Below, piece by piece: positions 33,381-45,025 of a stretch of 64,000 nucleotides of DNA; position 1 is the stretch's first letter; each line of letters begins with the position of its first letter. The position numbers and the translations under genes are program-made. The notes below the pieces were generated by a model. That model worked only from the letters and a program-made list of their open reading frames with translations, ran no database searches and was not told the DNA's origin. The stretch is from Serratia ficaria (GTDB taxonomy: Bacteria; Pseudomonadota; Gammaproteobacteria; Enterobacterales; Enterobacteriaceae): the NCBI RefSeq assembly GCF_900187015.1, contig NZ_LT906479.1, positions 1,674,001 to 1,738,000 on the forward strand, read 5' to 3'.

Positions 33381-33445
33381 TTTCTTTTGAGTAAATGGTA
33401 TGTCTTGGGGTGGGTATGGGCAATCGTGATAAAAATGGGAGTTTT

Positions 33446-34288
33446 ATGGATAATTTGCCAAAGGTGAGTGTTTATATTTCGACGTTCAATCGGTTAGAGC
33501 GACTTAAGCGAGCTATTCGTTCTGTAAAAGAACAAGATTATAAAAATATAGAACTGATTGTTTGCGATGATGCTTCTACGGATGAAACGAAAAGTTTTAT
33601 GGAAAGTCTGGCAGAAAGTGATTCGGATATTATCTATCTGCGTAATGAGGAAAATAAAGGCGCCTGTGCAACAAGGAATTTGGGTATATTCAAGGCTACA
33701 GGGCACTTTATTACAGGGCTAGATGACGATGATGAATTTACACCGGATAGAATAAGATTTTTAGTAGATAGCTGGAATGATAAATACTCATTCATTTGTT
33801 GTGATTTTATCGAGAGGTTTGCAGACGGGAAGCAAAAGAACTTTTATAATAAAAAAAAGGATATATACTTTAGCGATTTTAGATCGATTCTTTTCGAAAA
33901 TGTTGCTTCAAATCAGATATTTACATTGACCTCTCGATTAAGAGACATTGGTGGCTTCAATCCTGAAGTTAAGCGCTTGCAAGACTGGGATACTTGGTTA
34001 CGGTTGGCGAATAAATACGGTGGTTTTTTACGTAAGAAAGAATCGAAGTATATAATGCATCATGATCATACAATTAACGAAGAGCGAGTGTCAAAAAGTT
34101 ACCCCCTCAGTCGTTCTTTGACGGACTTGTTAAACAGAAATAAGAGCATGTATCAGGGGAGTGATAGAGATTTTATGCAATTTCTTATCGATATGAGTGA
34201 TAAAAAAGTAGGTATTCCAAGAGCTGCTTACTGGAGTTTTATAAAATTCAATCCGAAGTTTATTGTTAAGAAATTAATAAACAGATAA
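33446..34288 (+). CDS. Family 2 glycosyltransferase (capsule)
   Basis: Cytoplasmic, inverting GT-A transferase of about 280 residues that should add one sugar to the lipid-linked repeat unit. The N-terminus PKVSVYISTFNRLERLKRAI is the GT2 nucleotide-binding strand and loop. VCDDAST and the acidic GLDDDDEF (metal-binding DxD-type) follow, then RLQDWDTWLRLA as the candidate catalytic-base region. I start at the ATG at 33446 because GGGAG lies four to five bases before it; the frame is open to 33395 without a ribosome site. It contains an A8 run at 33851-33858. Donor and acceptor cannot be read from sequence; rhamnose is one candidate since rmlBACD adjoins. Confidence 0.85.
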   Translation: MDNLPKVSVYISTFNRLERLKRAIRSVKEQDYKNIELIVCDDASTDETKSFMESLAESDSDIIYLRNEENKGACATRNLGIFKATGHFITGLDDDDEFTPDRIRFLVDSWNDKYSFICCDFIERFADGKQKNFYNKKKDIYFSDFRSILFENVASNQIFTLTSRLRDIGGFNPEVKRLQDWDTWLRLANKYGGFLRKKESKYIMHHDHTINEERVSKSYPLSRSLTDLLNRNKSMYQGSDRDFMQFLIDMSDKKVGIPRAAYWSFIKFNPKFIVKKLINR

Positions 34289-34386: not shown

Positions 34387-35592
34387 ATGATGGCAACCAT
34401 GTCTAAAATAAAATCTAGTTTCTTTATAAAAACTACAATATATTTGCTCGTTCTACGCAGTCCATTAATTATTGTTTCTATACTCTGCTATTTGTTTTCA
34501 CATAAGAAAATATTTGCCAAGTTCACTATAACCATTATCCCTTTTTTAATATTCTTGGTTGTCGCGGCTCTTTATTCAATGCAAATGAATAATGATTTGG
34601 CAAATATATCGGGTCAGGGTAGGGATATTCTTCTTGCGGTTATTGTTGCCTTGTTTTTGGTTGAGTGTGGGCGTTATGATATTAGTAATAGGGAAATAAT
34701 ATATAATTCTTTAAAGATATGTCTTTCCTTAATTGCATGTGGGAAAATATTCATCATAATATTTTCTGTGATCACAGGGATTAGCTCGCTAGATATCATT
34801 ACCTGGATTACAGAAGTCTGGGACATTAATATGATGAAGTTGGGTGTCGGCGATACATTCATCACTCGTCTACAAATCCCCATGGATTCACTAGTTCCAT
34901 TTATGCTTTATTTCATAACGAAAGATATGATTCTTGGGAGGGGGGGGGTTAATACTAAGATCGTTTTCATATTATTAGTTATCTCTCTCGCTTTAACCTT
35001 ATCAAGATCTTTCTGGGCTCAAGGTGTTCTGTTCATTGGCTTGGCTATATTATTAGAAGCTACATTTTCAAAAATTGTCAAGATATCGATTTTATCTATA
35101 GTTGGCATCGTAATAATACTATTCTTTACCCCGCTTGGTGATGTAATATTTGCACTTATAGATTCCCGACTGAATAATCAGAGTTTAAATGCTGCTTCTG
35201 ACAAGGAGCGTATATTCCAAAACAATGCATTGTTAAATGCAATATCTTCTCATCCTCTTCTCGGCCATGGAATGGGATATTATATACCAAATGCACTGCG
35301 GTCAACGTCTACGCCATATTTGTATGAAAGTCAAACCTTGTCATTGGTTATGGATTTTGGAATAATAGGTGTCAGCACTCTGTTTTTGATTTTCTTATTT
35401 ACATGTCTATCCAATGCTATAAATGTCAATGGTAAAAAACGAGTTAAGAATTTAATTATGCCATTAGTGTGTTTTGCTATCTGGTTATTATCTGGTTCTG
35501 TGAACCCGTTTTTATTCGGTGCTTCAGGCGGGATTATTATATTCTTCTTCTCGAGATTCCATTTCGTTGATGATTTCTACAAAGAAAAATGA
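34387..35592 (+). CDS. wzy: Capsule repeat-unit polymerase Wzy
   Basis: Inner-membrane protein of 401 residues with about ten to eleven hydrophobic segments, the only multi-span protein of the cluster besides Wzx. It polymerises repeat units on the periplasmic face. The C-terminal third has the O-antigen ligase/polymerase-type motif SSHPLLGHGMGYYIPNAL in a periplasmic loop, and LALTLSRSFWAQGVLF before it carries the arginine usual in this fold. Wzy sequences vary greatly, so topology and position support the call more than identity. Three nearby ATGs (34387, 34390, 34399) are possible starts. Composition is very AT-rich, and codons 184-187 contain a G9 tract (34940-34948), where slippage would truncate the protein. 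Confidence 0.82.
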   Translation: MMATMSKIKSSFFIKTTIYLLVLRSPLIIVSILCYLFSHKKIFAKFTITIIPFLIFLVVAALYSMQMNNDLANISGQGRDILLAVIVALFLVECGRYDISNREIIYNSLKICLSLIACGKIFIIIFSVITGISSLDIITWITEVWDINMMKLGVGDTFITRLQIPMDSLVPFMLYFITKDMILGRGGVNTKIVFILLVISLALTLSRSFWAQGVLFIGLAILLEATFSKIVKISILSIVGIVIILFFTPLGDVIFALIDSRLNNQSLNAASDKERIFQNNALLNAISSHPLLGHGMGYYIPNALRSTSTPYLYESQTLSLVMDFGIIGVSTLFLIFLFTCLSNAINVNGKKRVKNLIMPLVCFAIWLLSGSVNPFLFGASGGIIIFFFSRFHFVDDFYKEK

Positions 35593-35633: not shown

Positions 35634-36479
35634 ATGGAAAATGGTATGAGTAATAAATGCTTGGTTATCGTAGTTACGTATAATAGTGAAAAACATATTC
35701 AGTGGTGCGTTAGTGGTCTCGATAACATAAACAGTGATCTGGAAATCAGAATTGTAGATTCAGGTTCTAAAGATACCGAGTATTTAGATCATTTGATATC
35801 GACTAATAAGCTTAGCGTTATCAAAGAAGAAAATATTGGTTTTGTTGCGGGCAATAATAAAGCGCTATACGACCTTGATAAATTTGATTGGGTTCTATTT
35901 TTGAATCCTGATGCACGTATTGAAAGCGGCTGCCTGGAAAAACTGTTGAGTTTCGCAGCATTACCGGAACAAAATAATGTTGGGATGCTTACGGTTCCAT
36001 TGGTTCGGTATGATATTCATGCTAATAAGTCGTTGAATGTTTTTGATTCGGTTGGAATAGCCTGTAACTATTATGGACGTTGGCAAGATATTAAGGCGAA
36101 CGAACCACAAATAGATATTGAAGAGACTTTTACGCCTGCAGAAGCTATCTGCGGTGCTTTTATGTTGACTCGAGTCTCTGCGCTAACTCAATGCGTTGAT
36201 TCGAAGGGGTTGCCAGGTTTCGAACGTACTTATTATATGTACAAGGAAGACATTGAAATATCTCAGCGACTTGTCAAGGCAGGCTGGCGTTTAGGTATCT
36301 ACAATGAATGTACCGCATTCCATTGTCGTGGGTGGAATGCCTCGAGAAAAGCTGTTCCATATTGGGCAAAATGGCATTCTGCGATAAATGATGTCGATGT
36401 AGCAAAGAAATATAAATGGCGTGCATTACCCTTGGCGTTGAGCAAGCTTGCTTGGGTTAAGTTTGTTGAAAAAAAATAG
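35634..36479 (+). CDS. Family 2 glycosyltransferase, rhamnosyltransferase-like (capsule)
   Basis: GT2 transferase of 281 residues resembling WbbL-type rhamnosyltransferases. KCLVIVVTYNSEKHIQWCV forms the nucleotide-binding start, with IGFVAGNNKAL and the metal-binding FLNPDARIESG in the middle. MYKEDIEISQRLVKAGWRLG is the candidate catalytic-base segment (ED), and the late HCRGWN is typical of the group. Either ATG at 35634 or 35646 could start it. With rmlBACD in the operon, transfer of L-rhamnose is a reasonable guess, not a demonstrated function. Confidence 0.85.
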   Translation: MENGMSNKCLVIVVTYNSEKHIQWCVSGLDNINSDLEIRIVDSGSKDTEYLDHLISTNKLSVIKEENIGFVAGNNKALYDLDKFDWVLFLNPDARIESGCLEKLLSFAALPEQNNVGMLTVPLVRYDIHANKSLNVFDSVGIACNYYGRWQDIKANEPQIDIEETFTPAEAICGAFMLTRVSALTQCVDSKGLPGFERTYYMYKEDIEISQRLVKAGWRLGIYNECTAFHCRGWNASRKAVPYWAKWHSAINDVDVAKKYKWRALPLALSKLAWVKFVEKK

Positions 36480-36493
36480 GTCGTGGAGTGTTT

Positions 36494-37078
36494 ATGAAAG
36501 TCATTACTGTACTAAATTCTGATTTTGATAATTTGTGTTTTCAGCTTGCTGATAAGATCAATGCAGGTTACTCACCGGACCTAATCGTTGGTATCGCCAC
36601 TGGAGGCGAGTTTGTTGCAAAAAAGATTGCAGAGAGGTTGAATTTACCCACTGTAATTATCAAGCGGCAGAGAGCTTCAACTAAACATAAGAAAAAATTC
36701 AAGATAGCGAAAGTGCTACCTTTATTGCCAGTGTTTATAAATAACTCCCTTAGGATTGCTGAAATTAAGTATAATGAATGGCGGTTTAATCGTAATGGAC
36801 GAGCGGTAAGTTCTGGTGAGGTCATTTTCAAAGAGGGCGATTTGAGACTGCTTAAAGAATGCCAGAATATTGTCTTGGTTGATGATTCCGTAGATAGCGG
36901 TGGAACATTTGTTGATTGTATTAAATATATCAAAAATCAAGTAGGCGAGGGTGCAGCAGTCAGAACTGCTGCACTTAATGTGACCTTTTCCAATCCTGTT
37001 GTAAAACCGGACTTCTGCATGTATGAAGACATTCTGCTGCGTTGTCCTTGGGCTAACGATGTGGCTCCGGCGAAATGA
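36494..37078 (+). CDS. Phosphoribosyltransferase-fold protein, candidate glycan ribosyltransferase
   Basis: A 194-residue type I phosphoribosyltransferase-fold protein. The PRPP-binding motif is complete: IVLVDDSVDSGGT with D130, D131 and the SGGT phosphate loop. The N-terminal DLIVGIATGGEFVAKKIAERL is the usual pyrophosphate-loop strand. It lies among glycosyltransferases and overlaps the next gene (a HAD phosphatase) by four bases, with no purine or pyrimidine salvage context. I infer that it transfers 5-phosphoribose from PRPP to the glycan, which the HAD partner would dephosphorylate to ribofuranose. A two-step PRPP route of this kind is known for ribofuranose in Klebsiella O-antigens, where the two domains are fused. 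Start at 36494 chosen for GGAG six bases upstream. Confidence 0.7.
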   Translation: MKVITVLNSDFDNLCFQLADKINAGYSPDLIVGIATGGEFVAKKIAERLNLPTVIIKRQRASTKHKKKFKIAKVLPLLPVFINNSLRIAEIKYNEWRFNRNGRAVSSGEVIFKEGDLRLLKECQNIVLVDDSVDSGGTFVDCIKYIKNQVGEGAAVRTAALNVTFSNPVVKPDFCMYEDILLRCPWANDVAPAK

Positions 37079-37683
37079 AATATATTGCATACGATCTAGA
37101 TGGAACCTTGGTTAAATTCAATACTTTTAAAGTATGGATTATTTTGTCATTCTTATTATCGTTTGTTTTTTTCCGATTCTCTTTTTTGAAGAGATTTATA
37201 GGATTCGTCCGTCTTCGAAAACAACGAAAGCTGGATCGCGTAGGTTTTAAGGCGGCGGTCTTGGCTATTCAGGTTGGTTCACCTTTCTGGAAAAAGGTGG
37301 GGAAATTATATGGTAACTATTTGGCAATCTTTTCTCTGCGGCGAGATCTATTAGCGTTGCATAAAGATGCAATCCGTTGTCTTGCTACGGCTGCTCCGGA
37401 TATCTATGTCATTCCGTTTTCACAGAAAGCAGGTGTTTTTGATACGGTGATTTACTCTCATTTTGTATCTGATAATACATTCATAGAAACTCTCAATGAA
37501 GAGAAAAAGAAAGCCGTGTTGAAAGTTTTCTCTTCAAATCCAGATTTTTTGTTTACCGATCATTATGATGATTTTCCATTAATCAACGCTTGCAAGTTCA
37601 CCTATTTGGTTTCACCTGACCCCGCTTCTAAAAAGAAGCTTGTTGAGAGATTATCCCAGGAAAATTATCAAATAATTGATTGA
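37075..37683 (+). CDS. HAD-superfamily phosphatase, candidate phosphoribosyl phosphatase
   Basis: A 202-residue haloacid dehalogenase-type hydrolase. The nucleophile motif YDLDGTL has D7 and D9; the second motif is probably ATAAPDIYV, the Lys region is EKKKAVLKVF, and the fourth motif is FTDHYDDFPLI with its acidic pair. Between motifs 1 and 2 lies an unusually hydrophobic stretch (about residues 19-36, IILSFLLSFVFFRFSFL) that could be a cap helix or dip into the membrane near the lipid-linked substrate. The start ATG overlaps the stop of the phosphoribosyltransferase gene (ATGA), so the two proteins are made together. I infer removal of the 5-phosphate left by the partner; a general sugar-phosphatase role is the alternative. 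Confidence 0.72.
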   Translation: MKYIAYDLDGTLVKFNTFKVWIILSFLLSFVFFRFSFLKRFIGFVRLRKQRKLDRVGFKAAVLAIQVGSPFWKKVGKLYGNYLAIFSLRRDLLALHKDAIRCLATAAPDIYVIPFSQKAGVFDTVIYSHFVSDNTFIETLNEEKKKAVLKVFSSNPDFLFTDHYDDFPLINACKFTYLVSPDPASKKKLVERLSQENYQIID

Positions 37684-37846: not shown

Positions 37847-39328
37847 ATGAGTCTACGAGAAAAAACGGTGCGGGGAGCTAAATGGTCTGCAATTTCCACC
37901 GTGATCATTATAGGCCTCAGTTTTTTACAATTGACATTGCTTTCACGTATGATTGAGCGAAGTGAGTTTGGCCTTCTGACCATAGCCATGGTCGTGATCG
38001 CACTTGCTGACACTATTTCAGACTTCGGTATATCAAATTCAATTGTTCAGAAAAAAGACATTACAGAGTCTCAATTAACCACGCTATATTGGTTAAACGT
38101 CGGGATTGGATTTACGGTTAGCGTTGTCACGTTTTTAACCAGCGGCTTGATTGCTGATGCCTTAAATGCACCAGGGTTAGAGCCATTGGTTAAAATAATC
38201 TCCATTGCCTTTTTGCTTATCCCGCATGGGCAACAGTTCCGCGCTTTGATGCAAAAGGAGCTTGATTTTGCTACTATCGGTAAAATCGAGTCATTTTCCT
38301 ATTTCTTGGGCTTCGCGTTTTCTCTCGGCTTTGCCACTATCTACCCTTTCGCCATTGTTGCGATCTACGGGTATTTAATTAACGCTTTGGTAAGAACGTT
38401 ATTGTTCGCTTATTTCGGCCGCAGTATTTATCGCCCCAGCATGAAGTTTTCATTTTTCGAGGTGAAATCTAACATCAAGTTTGGCGCTTATCTGACCGCT
38501 GACAGTCTTGTCAATTTCCTCAATACCAACGTTTCAACAGCTATTTTGGCACGGACATTAGGTACGGTTGTCACCGGGGGCTATAACCTGGCTTATAATG
38601 TCGCGGTTATGCCGCCGACCAAGTTAAACCCCATTATCACGCGTGTCTTATTCCCTGCGTTTGCAAAAATTCAGGATGACAGTGCCAAGTTGAAAGACTC
38701 TTTCTACAAACTGATTTCTCTGGTTGGTATCATCAACTTTCCGGCATTGCTTGGCTTGATGGTGGTTTCTCATAGTTTTGTGTTGTTTGTTTTTGGCGAG
38801 CGCTGGCTGTTCATTACTCCTATTTTGCAAATTCTTTGTGTCGTCGGTCTTCTTCGTTCTATTGGCAATCCAATAGGCTCTTTGCTGATGGCCAAGGCCA
38901 GGGTTGACATTAGTTTTAAGTTCAATGTGTTCAAAACATTGCTTTTTATCCCTAGCATGTTGCTTGGCGTTAAGTTAGGTGGCGCTATAGGGGTTGCACT
39001 GGCATTTTTAATCGTCCAGGTTATCAATACTTACCTTAGCTATTTCATATTGATTAAACCAGTGCTTGGCCCCAGTTATCGTCAGTACATTGATAGTCTA
39101 TGGTTGCCATTTAAATTAACGGTGCCGACCATAGTTGTCAGTTGGTGTGTTGGGTATTTTATGCCTCCTCAGGTATCGAATGCCGTTAGTTTATTTATGC
39201 AAATATTTCTTGGTCTTTTTGCTTTTGCTATAACAATTTACTTCACTAAGGCGCCGTTGATTAATGAAGTGAAGTTGCAGCTAATTAAAAGTGAAAAATT
39301 ACGTAAAATTTTCAGGGTGGAATGTTAA
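37847..39328 (+). CDS. wzx: Polysaccharide flippase, WzxC-like
   Basis: Inner-membrane transporter of 493 residues and about twelve to fourteen segments that flips the lipid-linked repeat unit to the periplasm. It resembles E. coli WzxC, the colanic acid exporter, over its whole length: SLREKTVRGAKWSAIS at the start, VIALADTISDFGISNSIVQ, IPHGQQFRALMQKELDF, KLNPIITRVLFPAFAKIQDD, and GLLRSIGNPIGSLLMAKARVD. The rest of the cluster does not look like colanic acid, so a WzxC-type flippase is combined with different transferases. It lies 163 bases after the HAD gene. Confidence 0.92.
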   Translation: MSLREKTVRGAKWSAISTVIIIGLSFLQLTLLSRMIERSEFGLLTIAMVVIALADTISDFGISNSIVQKKDITESQLTTLYWLNVGIGFTVSVVTFLTSGLIADALNAPGLEPLVKIISIAFLLIPHGQQFRALMQKELDFATIGKIESFSYFLGFAFSLGFATIYPFAIVAIYGYLINALVRTLLFAYFGRSIYRPSMKFSFFEVKSNIKFGAYLTADSLVNFLNTNVSTAILARTLGTVVTGGYNLAYNVAVMPPTKLNPIITRVLFPAFAKIQDDSAKLKDSFYKLISLVGIINFPALLGLMVVSHSFVLFVFGERWLFITPILQILCVVGLLRSIGNPIGSLLMAKARVDISFKFNVFKTLLFIPSMLLGVKLGGAIGVALAFLIVQVINTYLSYFILIKPVLGPSYRQYIDSLWLPFKLTVPTIVVSWCVGYFMPPQVSNAVSLFMQIFLGLFAFAITIYFTKAPLINEVKLQLIKSEKLRKIFRVEC

Positions 39329-39330
39329 AG

Positions 39331-40287
39331 ATGGAAAGAATGCAAACTTTAAAAGATAACTTGTCCGTTATTGAAAAGGTTATACCTAAAGGTAGCGAAA
39401 TAATTTATCTTGATTATCCCTTGCATTTGAATGTTGGTGATTTATTGATTCTCAAAGGGGCAGAGCAATTCTTTAAAGAGAATAATTATAAGGTCATTTC
39501 TCGTCACTCTGACCATACCAGCATGCATTTTGTCGAGCAGACTGATTCTATTCCGGAAAATGTTATTATCGTCCTTCACGGCGGTGGGAACTTTGGCGAT
39601 CTTTATCCAGCGCATCAGAGGCTTCGCGAAGCCGTTGTTAAAAAATACAAGAAAAATAAAGTGGTTATCTTACCGCAAACTGTCCATTTCAAAGAGAGCA
39701 GCAACCTGATAAAGTCGGGTGAGATATTTAAACAGCACCCTAATCTGACGATTTTTTGTCGAGACACCAATAGCCAGGAGATCCTTAAAAAACACTTCTG
39801 CGATAATGTGTTCCTCTGCCCTGACATGGCGCAATCACTGTGGAACATTTTCCCTCAACAAAAAGAGGGTGATGTAAAAAAGAAAACCATGTGGATGATC
39901 AGACGAGACATCGAAAAAACCGATCTCTCTGTTCTGGGTGAAAATGCCGATCCCAATGAGTTCGTAGACTGGTACGATATTTGTTCAGACGGCGACCGTC
40001 GTTTTATGAAGACTATGCACCTGTTCGAAAAATTGAACAAACGAATTCCAGGAAATCTCTTCCCAGCTAATACCCTTTGGTATTGGTATACGGATAAATT
40101 AGTTGCTCGTGTTAACTCTCTTTTCATGTCTCATGAGTCAGTCGTCACTTCACGTATGCATGGTCACATCCTGTGCTGTTTATTGAAAATGCATACCCAG
40201 CTTATCGATAACTCTTATGGCAAGAACTCTGGTTACTATGAGTCCTGGACGAAGGGTGTTCCTGGTTGTGAGCTGATTAAAATATGA
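39331..40287 (+). CDS. Polysaccharide pyruvyl transferase family protein
   Basis: A 318-residue protein of the polysaccharide pyruvyltransferase family (WcaK/ExoV/CsaB type), which uses phosphoenolpyruvate to form pyruvate ketals on sugars. Family features are HLNVGDLLILKGAEQFF, VIIVLHGGGNFGDLYPAHQRLR, VVILPQTVHFKESS, TIFCRDTNS and, near the end, VVTSRMHGHILCCLL with its conserved Arg/His. A pyruvate ketal would give the capsule a negative charge. Starts at 39322 (overlapping wzx), 39331 and 39340 are possible; 39331 has AGGGTGG about ten bases upstream. The target sugar is unknown. Confidence 0.85.
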   Translation: MERMQTLKDNLSVIEKVIPKGSEIIYLDYPLHLNVGDLLILKGAEQFFKENNYKVISRHSDHTSMHFVEQTDSIPENVIIVLHGGGNFGDLYPAHQRLREAVVKKYKKNKVVILPQTVHFKESSNLIKSGEIFKQHPNLTIFCRDTNSQEILKKHFCDNVFLCPDMAQSLWNIFPQQKEGDVKKKTMWMIRRDIEKTDLSVLGENADPNEFVDWYDICSDGDRRFMKTMHLFEKLNKRIPGNLFPANTLWYWYTDKLVARVNSLFMSHESVVTSRMHGHILCCLLKMHTQLIDNSYGKNSGYYESWTKGVPGCELIKI

Positions 40288-41273
40288 TGATATCCAACGA
40301 TTCCGTAAAAATCTCGGTAGTTATACCTGTTTATAATGTCAAGAAATATGTAAAACAGGCGGTAGACTCTATTCTTGCCCAGTCTGTGGCCCCCTATGAG
40401 GTCATCATTGTAGATGATGGTTCTACCGATGGTTCCGGCGACTTGCTTGAAGAACTCTATGGTCATCTTGAGGTTGTCAAGATCGTTCATACGACAAACC
40501 ATGGTTTAGGTGAGGCGCGTAATGAGGGCAGCCGTCATGTGACCGGTGAGTTTACCTATTACTTCGACTCGGACGATATCGCGGTTCCGACATTGTTGGA
40601 AGAATTTATGCTGGCATATCAGCGTAATTCTGACCTGGATATCTTCTGTTTCTCGGCAGACTCCTTTTTTGATACGCCGAACAACTCCAATCAGCCATTG
40701 CCGTTCTATACGAGAAAGATGGATAAAGATTTTCCTGATGGTGTTGCCGCGTTCAACACCTTGTCGGCGTATGGCACATTCTATCCTAATGCCTGGATGT
40801 ATGTTTTTCGTTCTAATTTACTTTCTAAGCATGATCTAAGATTTAAGCCTATAATCCATGAAGATGAAGAGTTCACGCCTCGGTTGTTCTTCAAGGCTGG
40901 GAAGGTCACAGCATCAAATAAAATCCTGTTTAAGCGCAGAGTGCGAGCTGGCTCTATTATGCAAAGCAATCGCAATGAGAAAAATGTGATTGGTTATATT
41001 GAGAGTATTAATGCATTAGAGTTGCTACGAAGCGCAAGTGAAAGCAAAAAGACAAAAAAACATCTTAGCGATAGAATTTATACTAACATTATCACCATCT
41101 CAAATATTATTGAATGTGGTCACATATCTCTTACTGATGATCTTAATGTTAAACTTGTCGGAATTAAAGAAAGAAACAAGAGTGTGTTGATTTATCTGGC
41201 TAAACTAAACCCTCGTGTTTATAGATTGTTTTATTTAATCAAACGTAGGTTAACCAGGCCAATCTACGCCTAA
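40284..41273 (+). CDS. Family 2 glycosyltransferase (capsule)
   Basis: GT2 enzyme of 329 residues, the third of its kind in the cluster. KISVVIPVYNVKKYVKQAVDS, VIIVDDGSTDGSG, GLGEARNEGSRHVTGE and the DxD motif YYFDSDDIAVP are classical GT-A signs. IIHEDEEFTPRLFF is the candidate catalytic-base region. The start overlaps the pyruvyltransferase stop by four bases. The C-terminal 80 residues are basic and could contact the membrane (LFYLIKRRLTRPIY). Donor unknown. It is followed by a hairpin with a short T-run, so it may end the biosynthetic transcript. Confidence 0.86.
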   Translation: MMISNDSVKISVVIPVYNVKKYVKQAVDSILAQSVAPYEVIIVDDGSTDGSGDLLEELYGHLEVVKIVHTTNHGLGEARNEGSRHVTGEFTYYFDSDDIAVPTLLEEFMLAYQRNSDLDIFCFSADSFFDTPNNSNQPLPFYTRKMDKDFPDGVAAFNTLSAYGTFYPNAWMYVFRSNLLSKHDLRFKPIIHEDEEFTPRLFFKAGKVTASNKILFKRRVRAGSIMQSNRNEKNVIGYIESINALELLRSASESKKTKKHLSDRIYTNIITISNIIECGHISLTDDLNVKLVGIKERNKSVLIYLAKLNPRVYRLFYLIKRRLTRPIYA

Positions 41274-41326: not shown

Positions 41327-41405
41327 AAATTCACAAAAAAGGATTTAATCTCTTTTGTCATTGACCTCAGGATGCTCAGCTTTTTATATTTATTTTGGAG
41401 GTAAC

Positions 41406-42908
41406 ATGAAATTATATCCTACTGCAAATGTTGGCGCTTATAGTCTTTCCTGCTTGTTTTTTATCGTGAGTTCACTGCCAATGTGTGCAAAAGCGGCTGC
41501 GACTCAAGCTCAATATTATGCAGAGATGAAGAAAACCCGTGAAGACCTAAGTGATGACACTTCAACATATGTCTATAATAAGCTTATGAAACGTGAGCTT
41601 TCACGCAGTTCGGACAATGATGGTGTAGATTTTGGTGTACACGGGATGGAAATACCCGCGGTTAAATCGACGGGTGATTTGAAAGCGATCGATAAGGCAT
41701 TTGAACTTCTATCTCGTACCGGGGTAAATAGTTTACGCAGTGCAGAAACCGCGTGGCACCGAGTCGCTGATGCTAATGGGGACCCTACTAATTTTAAAGA
41801 GGTCGATTTCCAACTGAAGGAAGCTAAAAAGTATGGCATGAGTCATAATTTCCTTTTCGGTTACCCACCAGCAAAATACACAGTTTCTCATAATAAACTT
41901 TCTGCTGTTGATCCCAAGTATTATGACAAATATAAGAATTACCTCAATGTCACCTTAAAACATCTTGAAGGTTATGATGTCAAATATGCTGAGTTAGGCA
42001 ATGAGGTGGATGCGCCGAGCGTTTGGTGGATTAAATCGACCCCGGCGATGTATGTCAATGAGATGAAAATGCTCAAAGAAGCCATTCAGGCCTCAGGGCA
42101 AAATATTAAAACGGTGGCTTTTGCAGCGACATACTCACGTTCAGAGTTTAAAGGTGGGTTAGACGGCGGCCGGAGATTTGTCGATAAAAGCTTTAAGCTC
42201 GGTATAGATAAGTATGCGGATGCTTACTCTATTCACCACTATGTTTTCGGCGCGGATAATTTGCCTGGCTATATGCGGGATATGGCGAACAAATACGGGG
42301 GCGGCAACAAACCTATCCTGGATACGGAACAGCTCGATACGGCCTCGACGGGTCGATATCAGTCAAATCCGTATGACCTGGTGAAGCTATTTGCACGCGG
42401 TTTCTATTTCTATGATATGAAAAGAGTCGATTATTATTTGGCTCAGGATCGATTCTTGAACGGCAAGCTGTACTACTTCGGTTTGTTTGACGAGAACTGG
42501 AAGCCTAAATTACGCTTACTGGCTTATGCCATGGCAGTCGACGCAATGAAAGGGAAGCACTTGCTCTATATGGCTAGCCCGCAGAAAGACGTTGAGGCCT
42601 ATGTTTTACAAGCCAACCCTAACACCAAGGGTAAAAAATACACGATTCTCATGTGGAAAAACCCGCCCAAAAATGCGCGCGTAACGCCGGCTACGGTTAC
42701 CGGGATTAGAGGCAATGTCTCTATCGAACAGTGGAACCTGGATGTTGAGAATAAGGCGGATATTTCGCAGGGAATTAAAGTAGACGATAAACCCATTGCC
42801 ATCTATACCGACGAAAAACCGGATTGGCAAACGGTCAATAAGTCATCATTTGCTGCCAAGTTGCCGGCCATGGCCGTCAGTCGCTCCCCGATGCCAAATG
42901 ACAAATAA
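41406..42908 (+). CDS. Exported glycoside hydrolase, clan GH-A (GH39-like)
   Basis: A 500-residue protein with a signal peptide (about residues 1-30, SLSCLFFIVSSLPMCAKA) and a predicted (beta/alpha)8-barrel hydrolase domain. YAELGNEVDAP carries the N-E pair expected for the acid/base (E200). PILDTEQLDTAS carries a second Glu (E308) where clan GH-A enzymes have the nucleophile; the 108-residue spacing suits this. WHRV, SIHHYVFG and FDENWKPKLRLLAYA also resemble GH39/GH79-type barrels. It is the last gene before the strong terminator at 42973, and a GGAGG ribosome site at 41397 fixes the start. It probably trims or clears capsule in the periplasm or outside; the substrate is unproven. Confidence 0.75.
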   Translation: MKLYPTANVGAYSLSCLFFIVSSLPMCAKAAATQAQYYAEMKKTREDLSDDTSTYVYNKLMKRELSRSSDNDGVDFGVHGMEIPAVKSTGDLKAIDKAFELLSRTGVNSLRSAETAWHRVADANGDPTNFKEVDFQLKEAKKYGMSHNFLFGYPPAKYTVSHNKLSAVDPKYYDKYKNYLNVTLKHLEGYDVKYAELGNEVDAPSVWWIKSTPAMYVNEMKMLKEAIQASGQNIKTVAFAATYSRSEFKGGLDGGRRFVDKSFKLGIDKYADAYSIHHYVFGADNLPGYMRDMANKYGGGNKPILDTEQLDTASTGRYQSNPYDLVKLFARGFYFYDMKRVDYYLAQDRFLNGKLYYFGLFDENWKPKLRLLAYAMAVDAMKGKHLLYMASPQKDVEAYVLQANPNTKGKKYTILMWKNPPKNARVTPATVTGIRGNVSIEQWNLDVENKADISQGIKVDDKPIAIYTDEKPDWQTVNKSSFAAKLPAMAVSRSPMPNDK

Positions 42909-43258
42909 ATTACGTGACCGAGAATTTTTGATGTAAAACGCAAGTGAAAAATTTTTAGCTGTTGACCTAACGAGGGCAGAGTAAAACTCTGCCCTTTTTT
43001 TATTTTTTAAGCGTTGCCCCGCAGTCAAGCCCTTTCTTATTTTTCGACGGTATCCCGGGTTAATCATTAACCATGTAACGTTATAATTTTTTTGTCTTTC
43101 TTCCCTCCCGACCTTGCCTAATCTCAAACCCTCTACCATAGTTAATTCCAGTTCTAGCACTCCGTTTCAGCAGATTGTTTTATAACCTGTTGAGAGGGAT
43201 TTTGCCGGGTTAAGCCATTAACTGTAAACAGTAAACCATAGGTTTAAGAGGGATTAGT
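42909..43258 (+). other. Gene-free spacer between the capsule operon and lipBCD
   Basis: 350 bases without a credible gene. It contains the capsule-operon terminator (42973-43001) and must hold the lipBCD promoter. A TATAAT at 43082-43087 is a possible -10, about 170 bases before lipB, but the sequence 16-18 bases upstream of it is a poor -35. I see no confident Fur or other operator. Confidence 0.5.
42973..43001 (+). terminator. Terminator of the capsule operon
   Basis: Perfect 10-bp stem AGGGCAGAGT/ACTCTGCCCT (42973-42982, 42986-42995), AAA loop, and a T7 run from 42995. It is 64 bases past the glycoside hydrolase stop and separates the capsule genes from lipBCD. Confidence 0.93.
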
Positions 43259-45025
43259 GTGACCCCAACGTTACCCTATAATGAAATTGCAGCCGTCGTG
43301 CGCGCTCGCAGCAAGGTGTTCTGGACCTTGGGTATTTTTACTGCGTTAATCAACCTGCTTATGTTGGTCCCGTCGATTTATATGCTGCAGGTCTATGATC
43401 GCGCGCTCCCCTCGCGGAATGAAATTACCCTGTTGATGTTGACGCTTATTATGCTGTCCATGTTTGGCGTAATGGCATTGCTGGAGTATGTGCGCAGCAT
43501 GGTGGTCATTCGCATTGGCAGCCAATTGGATATGCAGCTCAACACGCGAATTTATACCGCAGCCTTTGAGGCTAATCTGAAAAACGGTTCTTCAGATGCC
43601 GGGCAAATGCTGAACGACCTCACCAACGTACGGCAGTTTTTGACCGGCAGCGCGTTGTTCGCCTTCTTTGACGCCCCGTGGTTCCCGATCTATTTGCTGG
43701 TTATCTTCCTGTTTAACCCGTGGCTGGGCCTTTTCGCGTTGGTCGGCTCGCTGTTGCTGGTCGGGTTGGCGGTGTTGAACGAATGGCTGTCGCGCAAGCC
43801 GCTAGGCGAAGCGAGTAAGCTGTCAATTATGTCCAGCAGCCTGGCGAGCACCAACTTGCGTAATGCGGAAGTGATCGAAGCGTTGGGGATGTTGCCGAAT
43901 TTAAAGCGGCGTTGGTTCAACCTGCATAAAAGATTCCTCAATAACCAGCGAATCGCCAGCGAGCGCTCGGCGCGCGTGACCTCCATAACCAAGTTTGTGC
44001 GGCTTTCTTTACAGTCCCTGGTGCTGGGGCTGGGCGGCTGGTTAGCGATTGATGGGCTGATCACGCCCGGCATGATGATCGCCGGCTCTATTCTGATGGG
44101 GCGCACGCTGGCGCCTATCGAACAAGTCATTAACGTTTGGAAAAGCTACAGCTCTTCCAAACTCTCATATAACCGCCTGGTTCAATTATTAAATGCGTAT
44201 CCGCAGCGCGGGGAGGGGATGTCATTGCCGCGTCCTCAGGGCGCGTTGTCCGTTGAGAACGTGACGGCAACGCCGCCGGGCTCGCAAGCGAATGCCGTGC
44301 TGCACAACGTCAGTTTTGCGCTGCAGGCGGGGGACGTGTTGGGCATTATCGGCCCGAGCGCTTCGGGAAAGTCAACGCTTGCTCGGCTGTTGGTAGGGAT
44401 CTGGCCCGTCTCTGCAGGCATAGTCCGGCTCGATGGCGCCGACATTTATCAGTGGAATAAGGATGAACTGGGTCCTTATATCGGCTACCTGCCGCAAGAC
44501 ATCGAGTTATTTGCCGGCACAATCGCCGAGAATATCGCCCGCTTTAATGACATCGACTCGGAGAAAGTCATCGAGGCCGCCCAGCTGGCGGGCGTGCATG
44601 AAATGATCCTGCGCTTTCCCAACGGCTACGACTCGGTCATTGGCAATGGCGGCGCCGGGCTTTCCGGCGGGCAAAAGCAAAGGATCGGTTTGGCGCGCGC
44701 CCTTTATGGTTCCCCGTCTCTGGTGGTGTTGGATGAACCCAACTCCAACCTTGATGACATTGGGGAACGCGCGCTCAATATCGCCATACAGACGCTGCAC
44801 CAACGTAAAACGACGGTGGTGTTGATCACGCATCGCACCAATTTGCTCTCGATGACCAACAAGCTGCTGGTGCTGACTAACGGTCAGGTAAATGCATTTG
44901 GCACTACGCAGCAGGTTATACAGGCGCTGTCACAGGCACAAAAAGCGCCGGCGCAGCAGCCGGTGGCCCAAGCGGTGAACAGTGAGCTTGAGCAGGAAAA
45001 TTTGCCAAAAACACAAACCCATTAA
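43259..45025 (+). CDS. lipB: Type I secretion ABC exporter LipB
   Basis: Inner-membrane ABC exporter (PrtD/HasD/LipB family) that recognises C-terminal secretion signals of substrates such as lipase, metalloprotease and S-layer protein in S. marcescens. The membrane domain (about 1-310) starts with ALINLLMLVPSIYMLQVYDR, a signature of the protease/lipase exporter branch, and lacks the peptidase domain. The ATPase domain has Walker A GPSASGKST, GYLPQDIELFAGTI, signature GLSGGQKQRIGLARAL and Walker B LVVLDEPNSNLD. The 588 residues equal the known LipB length. The start is GTG, preceded by AGAGGG. No substrate gene lies in the window. Confidence 0.93.
   Translation: MTPTLPYNEIAAVVRARSKVFWTLGIFTALINLLMLVPSIYMLQVYDRALPSRNEITLLMLTLIMLSMFGVMALLEYVRSMVVIRIGSQLDMQLNTRIYTAAFEANLKNGSSDAGQMLNDLTNVRQFLTGSALFAFFDAPWFPIYLLVIFLFNPWLGLFALVGSLLLVGLAVLNEWLSRKPLGEASKLSIMSSSLASTNLRNAEVIEALGMLPNLKRRWFNLHKRFLNNQRIASERSARVTSITKFVRLSLQSLVLGLGGWLAIDGLITPGMMIAGSILMGRTLAPIEQVINVWKSYSSSKLSYNRLVQLLNAYPQRGEGMSLPRPQGALSVENVTATPPGSQANAVLHNVSFALQAGDVLGIIGPSASGKSTLARLLVGIWPVSAGIVRLDGADIYQWNKDELGPYIGYLPQDIELFAGTIAENIARFNDIDSEKVIEAAQLAGVHEMILRFPNGYDSVIGNGGAGLSGGQKQRIGLARALYGSPSLVVLDEPNSNLDDIGERALNIAIQTLHQRKTTVVLITHRTNLLSMTNKLLVLTNGQVNAFGTTQQVIQALSQAQKAPAQQPVAQAVNSELEQENLPKTQTH

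Follow-up and report, generated by a model that had tools for sequence, protein, structure and literature searches.

A split phosphoribosyltransferase-phosphatase gene pair in a Serratia capsule cluster and its probable role in ribosyl transfer

A 64,000-nucleotide stretch of the Serratia ficaria genome (contig NZ_LT906479.1, positions 1,674,001 to 1,738,000; hereafter, the window) contains, within a capsule cluster, two adjacent genes encoding a type I phosphoribosyltransferase (PRT) and a phosphatase of the haloacid dehalogenase (HAD) superfamily. This pair is probably a split ribosyl-transfer system that uses phosphoribosyl pyrophosphate (PRPP), with a PRT of a lineage distinct from that of the transferases (gPRT) in the characterized gPRT-PRP systems. 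A sequence-only reading of the same DNA had proposed a distinct family performing ribose transfer; the two-gene organization, the classical vicinal aspartates (DD), the fold of a salvage enzyme and the replacement of the base-contacting positions in 90 of 90 family members all fit the distinct family, and the chemistry is predicted from sequence. The pair comprises the following elements:

36494..37078, + strand: PRT, type I phosphoribosyltransferase of 194 amino acids, the proposed ribose-5-phosphate transferase (PF00156, AlphaFold model)
36881..36907, + strand: PRPP-binding loop, PRT residues 130-138, DDSVDSGGT (90-sequence alignment)
37040..37060, + strand: C-terminal PRT family signature, residues 183-189, RCPWAND (90-sequence alignment)
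37075..37078, + strand: ATGA overlap of 4 bases between the PRT stop and the HAD start
37075..37683, + strand: HAD-IB-type phosphatase of 202 amino acids, the proposed 5-phosphatase of the transferred ribose (PF12710, model)

The PRT open reading frame (ORF) starts with the ATG at 36494 (an in-frame GTG lies at 36488) and stops at 37076-37078, and the HAD ORF runs from the ATG at 37075 to the stop at 37681-37683. The initial description of a type I PRT with a complete PRPP motif, overlapping by four bases a HAD with an intact DLDGT, was borne out in full. The PRT matches PF00156 above the gathering score (E 3.3e-13) and carries the motif NIVLVDDSVDSGGT, and this match, together with a PRPP loop containing a vicinal acidic pair, assigns it to the type I phosphoribosyltransferase superfamily. 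The HAD matches PF12710, likewise above the gathering score (E 2.8e-7), and its motif I reads YDLDGT.

Residue conservation in the PRT was counted over an alignment of 90 family members. The vicinal DD is present in all 90; D130, D131, D134, G136 and T138 of the PRPP loop are invariant, as are P185, W186 and D189 of the C-terminal signature, with R183 present in 89. Because the PRPP motif is invariant, we infer that PRPP is the donor. The AlphaFold model of the PRT (mean predicted local distance difference test score, pLDDT, 93.3; predicted template modeling score, pTM, 0.89) has its nearest folds, among the matches listed, in the purine PRTs 1vdm, 5bqp and 4zfn, and a single-sequence search of the PDB gave weak matches to purine PRTs as well. 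The annotated relatives among the matches listed are named only phosphoribosyltransferase, hypoxanthine phosphoribosyltransferase or hypothetical protein. Weak matches to retron III-A PRTase models (PADLOC, best E 2.6e-5) were rejected because they span at most residues 101-162, that is, only the surroundings of the PRPP loop.

The kinship in fold and sequence to purine PRTs, and the retention of D134, which we take to be the equivalent of the general base of human HPRT, would fit a PRT engaged in nucleobase salvage or nucleoside synthesis, with the HAD as a nucleotidase turning its product into a nucleoside, but the purine site itself makes this very unlikely. In 6-oxopurine PRTs, a Lys contacts the base and a Trp near the C-terminal PW stacks; both are retained at the corresponding positions of 1vdm, 4z1o and the gpt-like protein of the source genome (L003). 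In the present family, position 164 is Thr in 86 members, Ser in 3 and Ala in 1, never Lys, and position 181, immediately before the RCPWAND signature and at the site of the Trp, is Leu in 81, Ile in 8 and Thr in 1, never aromatic. Thus, all 90 members have other residues in place of the Lys and Trp of the HGXPRT/Gpt type, in contrast to 1vdm, Sulfolobus HGXPRT (5bqp/4zfn) and E. coli Gpt, from which the family also differs by modeled helices over residues 71-100, where P79 and R87 are invariant, and by its neighbors, a HAD and often a glycosyltransferase (GT). Furthermore, a search of the source genome (a single contig of 5.21 Mb) with PF00156 gave 10 matches, of which L001, L002 and L003 are read as hpt, prs and gpt; since hpt-, prs- and gpt-like proteins are already present, salvage does not need the PRT of the cluster. 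The family appears to descend from hypoxanthine/guanine/xanthine salvage stock, apart from the characterized gPRT lineage.

PRT and HAD form a genuine, well-conserved two-gene module that is linked across phyla. Separate profile searches for the two proteins in the same 297 genomes of one Bacteroidales family (that of G321) found the PRT in 71, the HAD in 67 and both in 66 (hypergeometric P ~7e-59, relatedness ignored). In 64 of these 66 genomes, the two are neighbors on the same strand; in the other two, they are adjacent but convergent (G985) or on different contigs (G822). Some of the apparent singletons have partners or lie at sequence ends: the HAD adjoins the PRT in the extracted stretch of G959 and is cut by the stretch end in G872 (L046), in G851, the PRT is found at base 55 of the contig, and the sole HAD-only genome, G821, has a partial match near a contig start. 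In G797, PRT and HAD are naturally fused in one 483-residue ORF (L074:3504-4955). A survey of 45 loci, one per handle (L005-L008 found via the HAD, the others via the PRT), gave the same picture, with the HAD downstream of the PRT on the same strand, at most 120 nt between the ends of the profile matches, in 43; the HAD is convergent in L037 and was not found in L045. The two ORFs, taken from the first start codon, overlap in 23 of 26 loci. PRT and HAD distances are correlated (Mantel r 0.69 over 40 loci; for the 25 loci with a GT, 0.75 for PRT-HAD against 0.60 for both PRT-GT and HAD-GT), values that are confounded by species history and are not used as proof.

Such tight linkage bears on another, quite improbable scenario, in which the PRT moves phosphoribose to a glycan and the HAD acts elsewhere, or the phosphate is partly retained, yielding a phosphoribosylated polymer. 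Two of the 71 PRT-containing Bacteroidales-family genomes, G711 and G920, have no HAD in the stretches examined (L077 and L079), as that scenario would allow, but in 43 of 45 loci the two genes are neighbors, and another genome has them fused. The exceptions to the order of the pair are the convergent L037 and the loci where a PRT was found without a HAD, L045/L079 and L077; in L077, the gene next to the PRT encodes a GT2.

The distribution of the pair is patchy. Single-sequence searches recovered 18 PRT and 22 HAD homologs, with names that include Serratia, Gibbsiella, Brenneria and Klebsiella, and a PRT profile search yielded 173 homologs at E <=1e-6 (7997 candidates scored, the best 120 listed). 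Of 295 genomes in the window's family, one matched, the window itself (single sequence, E <=1e-8); matches were obtained in 3 of 30 genomes of the genus and 3 of 398 of the phylum, in 1 of 296 from the phylum of G321 (the seed only) and in 5 of 289 from the class of G324 (the seed included). Some genomes are duplicates: G386 and G1402 represent the same place, and G1333 the same place as CP131057.1. A contig scan with the single PRT sequence found no relative, one with the HAD alignment gave 4 loci, one plasmid record matched at the protein level, and 20,395 E. coli records showed no match at the DNA level, where diverged copies could escape. The genome search flagged in-frame stops in some matches (G323, G920, G1467 and others); given that three flagged PRTs (L007, L079 and L076) are intact ORFs, these flags may be edge effects rather than decay. 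In a tree of 49 PRTs, with support values not considered, the three enterobacterial members cluster together, and the six members labeled ALPHA share a clade with one Bacteroidales member (L038); one of these six, L049, is assigned only to the window's phylum, and the tree is not taken as a record of gene transfer.

The third recurrent component is a GT, which in 27 of the 45 loci ends at most 41 nt upstream of the PRT match on the same strand. Four of the 18 loci lacking it (L021, L027, L028 and L065) have less than 300 nt there, which leaves 27 of 41, all with 400 nt or more; in 8 of 26 loci, the ORFs of GT and PRT share exactly 4 nt. GTs were sought with eight query proteins, five of them upstream genes from the same survey, which makes an independent check with Pfam important: among 20 upstream genes submitted (18 of the 27, with L078 and L080), 18 match PF00535 and 2 are of the GT4 type, presumably those of L012 and L013. 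The upstream GT is not background, since elsewhere in the 19-kb loci from Bacteroidales, the same eight queries matched GTs only in L057 (two) and L061 (one). What weighs against a glycan-directed role is that 14 of the 41 loci with sufficient upstream sequence have no GT just before the PRT, among them L007, L053, L066 and L067, where the neighbors are unrelated.

A search for the same pair in other polysaccharide loci, as had been suggested, was successful: Pfam matches of some of the neighbors identified GT2, GT4, pyruvyltransferase or Wzx-type genes near the pair in L008, L049, L075 and L082 (CP131057.1, Hyphomicrobiales bacterium UR115). In L012 and L013, from genomes of the same genus, the pair is read as lying within a capsule locus among other glycosyltransferases, and L076, by eye, seems to resemble the polysaccharide-type loci; in L048, there are no polysaccharide-type neighbors among those listed. 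A linked HAD and polysaccharide or GT surroundings, the context of a glycan ribofuranosyltransferase, are thus both observed. Closely spaced GT2-PRT-HAD triplets occur in the Bacteroidales loci L005, L006, L050-L052, L054, L056-L064 and L069, where the GT2s resemble one another. In the loci read, these triplets lie outside any polysaccharide cluster, which would agree with a role of the pair in modifying some other surface molecule (lipid, core oligosaccharide or protein), with its position in the capsule cluster incidental. This is no more probable, in our estimate, than a phosphoribosylated polymer, because the Serratia-like and alphaproteobacterial copies are found among polysaccharide genes of varying content.

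In the window, the pair is flanked by the remaining genes of the capsule cluster:

33395..34288, + strand: GT2 glycosyltransferase (PF00535, E 2.2e-34)
34387..35592, + strand: Wzy-type polymerase (PF04932)
35634..36479, + strand: GT2 glycosyltransferase, 14 nt before the PRT ATG (PF00535)
37847..39328, + strand: Wzx (MOP) flippase (PF13440, NF007773)
39322..40287, + strand: polysaccharide pyruvyltransferase (PF04230)
40284..41273, + strand: GT2 glycosyltransferase (PF00535)
41355-42908: ORF of 517 amino acids closing the capsule cluster (PF11790 at E 0.052 only)

The nine scanned genes thus run GT2, Wzy, GT2, PRT, HAD, Wzx, pyruvyltransferase, GT2 and an unassigned ORF, for which no confident Pfam or NCBIfam match was obtained (residues from 41400 scanned). 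The genes upstream of these nine are read as wza, wzb, wzc, an undecaprenyl-phosphate sugar transferase and rmlBADC. The placement of the pair among capsule glycosyltransferases, apart from any nucleotide-salvage context, was therefore correctly recognized from the sequence: its neighbors are GT2, Wzy and Wzx genes, and no salvage gene was seen. A polysaccharide pyruvyltransferase lies near the pair in the window (39322-40287), in L075 (10170-11192) and in L082 (10283-11263). In L012 and L013, the pair adjoins 433-residue ORFs read as hydrolase-like, and between the hydrolase-like gene and genes of type I secretion-like character lies a repeat-rich ORF of 1011-1025 residues (L013:12818-15895, L012:3813-6848); no counterpart of that ORF is present at the same place in the window (42908-43259).

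The closest functional precedents are the gPRT-PRP systems of Klebsiella O4/O7, Hib Bcs3 (CriT-CrpP) and Cj1432 of C. jejuni, which likewise combine a PRT-fold transferase with a HAD in polysaccharide loci and use PRPP as the donor, followed by 5-dephosphorylation. PRPP-dependent ribosylation and HAD dephosphorylation are established for Bcs3 (PMC10299916), Klebsiella O4/O7 (PMC11231755) and Cj1432 (PMC12096443). In the window, in contrast, the two activities would reside in separate genes, and the PRT has 194 amino acids against the 445 residues of CriT (592-1036). In the published description (PMC10299916), CriT has no vicinal DD and its D680 and E818 sit in separate loops, and CrpP retains only the first Asp of DxD. 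The window PRT does not show this CriT-type arrangement, the DD being present in 90 of 90 members, and the HAD retains both D7 and D9 in 26 of 26, a comparison with CrpP by description, from which other PRPs may differ. Because of these two differences, the pair is not classed as a gPRT-PRP, although it presumably works like one. Helical bundles surround the CriT site, and its second bundle, HB-2 (716-795), comes after loop 2 (PMC10299916); in the PRT model, the helices at 71-100 come after the R60/K66 loop and occupy, as judged from text, a comparable position in the fold. No gPRT-PRP chains were recognized among the listed PDB sequence matches (3 for the HAD profile, the best 60 of 74 for the PRT profile), and no solved gPRT or CrpP chain was recognized among the best 50 structural matches, which proves nothing because unlisted families may match. 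Of the structural comparison with gPRT-PRP that had been proposed, then, a confident purine-PRT-like model resulted, and likeness to gPRT was judged by description.

The HAD model (pLDDT 95.5, pTM 0.90) shows a HAD fold with a helical cap, and motifs I-IV (D7, D9, T105, K144, D162 and D166) are invariant in 26 sequences, features that fit a CrpP-type PRP but are common to many other HAD phosphatases. A single-sequence search of the PDB with the HAD returned nothing meaningful, and its profile found no convincing match among PDB sequences (best E 0.14). The early hydrophobic stretch that had been thought to place the phosphatase at the membrane is real (19-residue Kyte-Doolittle mean 2.19) but is modeled as the first cap helix, residues 17-31. 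The mean reaches at least 1.99 in P0039, in the window HAD and in the ten relatives closest to it; P0030-P0038 and L007 have a weaker stretch, and in P0040, L005, L006 and L008 the strongest hydrophobic stretch sits elsewhere, so that membrane placement is weakly supported.

The same hydrophobic helix, which the window HAD shares with its closest relatives, would suit a pair that makes polyprenyl-phosphate-ribose, a lipid-linked donor whose ribose is transferred later in the periplasm, along the lines of the three-component pentofuranose pathway (ORF15, consisting of a polyprenyl phosphoribose synthase, PPPRS, and PRP; a MATE flippase; and GT136), a lipid-linked variant of PRPP-derived pentofuranose transfer that also has a HAD PRP domain (PMC11127046). 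Nevertheless, this alternative seems improbable, if slightly less so than the others: the synthase of that pathway is a UbiA-type protein integral to the membrane and acts ahead of periplasmic transfer (PMC11127046), whereas the window PRT has the type I PRT fold and not the UbiA fold, and the nine cluster genes include no UbiA or GT-C match, the rest of the genome not having been searched. In mycobacteria, the transferase DPPRS (Rv3806c) likewise depends on PRPP and is paired with a phosphatase encoded by a gene of its own, Rv3807c (PMC11127046), but that transferase is unrelated to the PRT and that phosphatase to the HAD.

Under the split ribosyl-transfer model, the pair would act in the cytoplasm. 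The PRT would bind Mg-PRPP through its invariant DDxxDSGxT loop, and the acceptor would be a hydroxyl of the growing lipid-linked oligosaccharide rather than a nucleobase, set up by a glycosyltransferase of the cluster, the GT2 at 35634..36479 being a possible partner in making it. This hydroxyl would probably be deprotonated by D134, giving beta-D-ribofuranose-5-phosphate with inversion; the HAD would strip the 5-phosphate via D7, and the ribosylated unit would then be extended, flipped by Wzx and polymerized by Wzy. From the combined evidence, we infer that the acceptor is a glycan, that the linkage is beta, that D134 has the role proposed, that the steps follow this order and that PRT and HAD share one substrate.

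The literature places few constraints on this model. No description of a split PRT-HAD pair was recognized among the listed open-access matches, which is weak evidence, and the screens of Kelly et al. 2022 are reported to have met sequence-based outliers (PMC11127046), so that related forms may already be listed there. A Serratia marcescens capsule paper reports a ribose signal in UMH9 that is not capsule-dependent (PMC9000132), and its main text, as far as available, contains neither 'phosphoribosyl' nor 'haloacid' and gives no support. Of ribose in Klebsiella, sought for capsules, only O4 turned up in the available text (PMC12149307), and the accessible part of a gut-glycan review mentions ribose only in a streptococcal exopolysaccharide (PMC12413058).

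On balance, we lean toward a second, independent origin of glycan ribosylation, in which a purine-salvage PRT was repurposed as a glycan O-ribosyltransferase with its own HAD. As a portable GT-PRT-HAD cassette, the system would then have spread to the capsules of enterobacteria and the exopolysaccharide loci of alphaproteobacteria; it would also have reached one Bacteroidales family, in roughly a quarter of whose sampled genomes it may ribosylate an undescribed surface glycan. If so, ribofuranose transfer to glycans would have been invented from PRPP chemistry more than once, which would bear on the conversion of N-glycosidic salvage enzymes into O-glycosyltransferases. The pair would also provide a small, separable enzyme system for glycan synthesis in vitro. 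Moreover, the PRT family would be a usable sequence marker of ribose in glycans of so far undescribed structure, with a testable prediction for the surface glycans of a Bacteroidales family.
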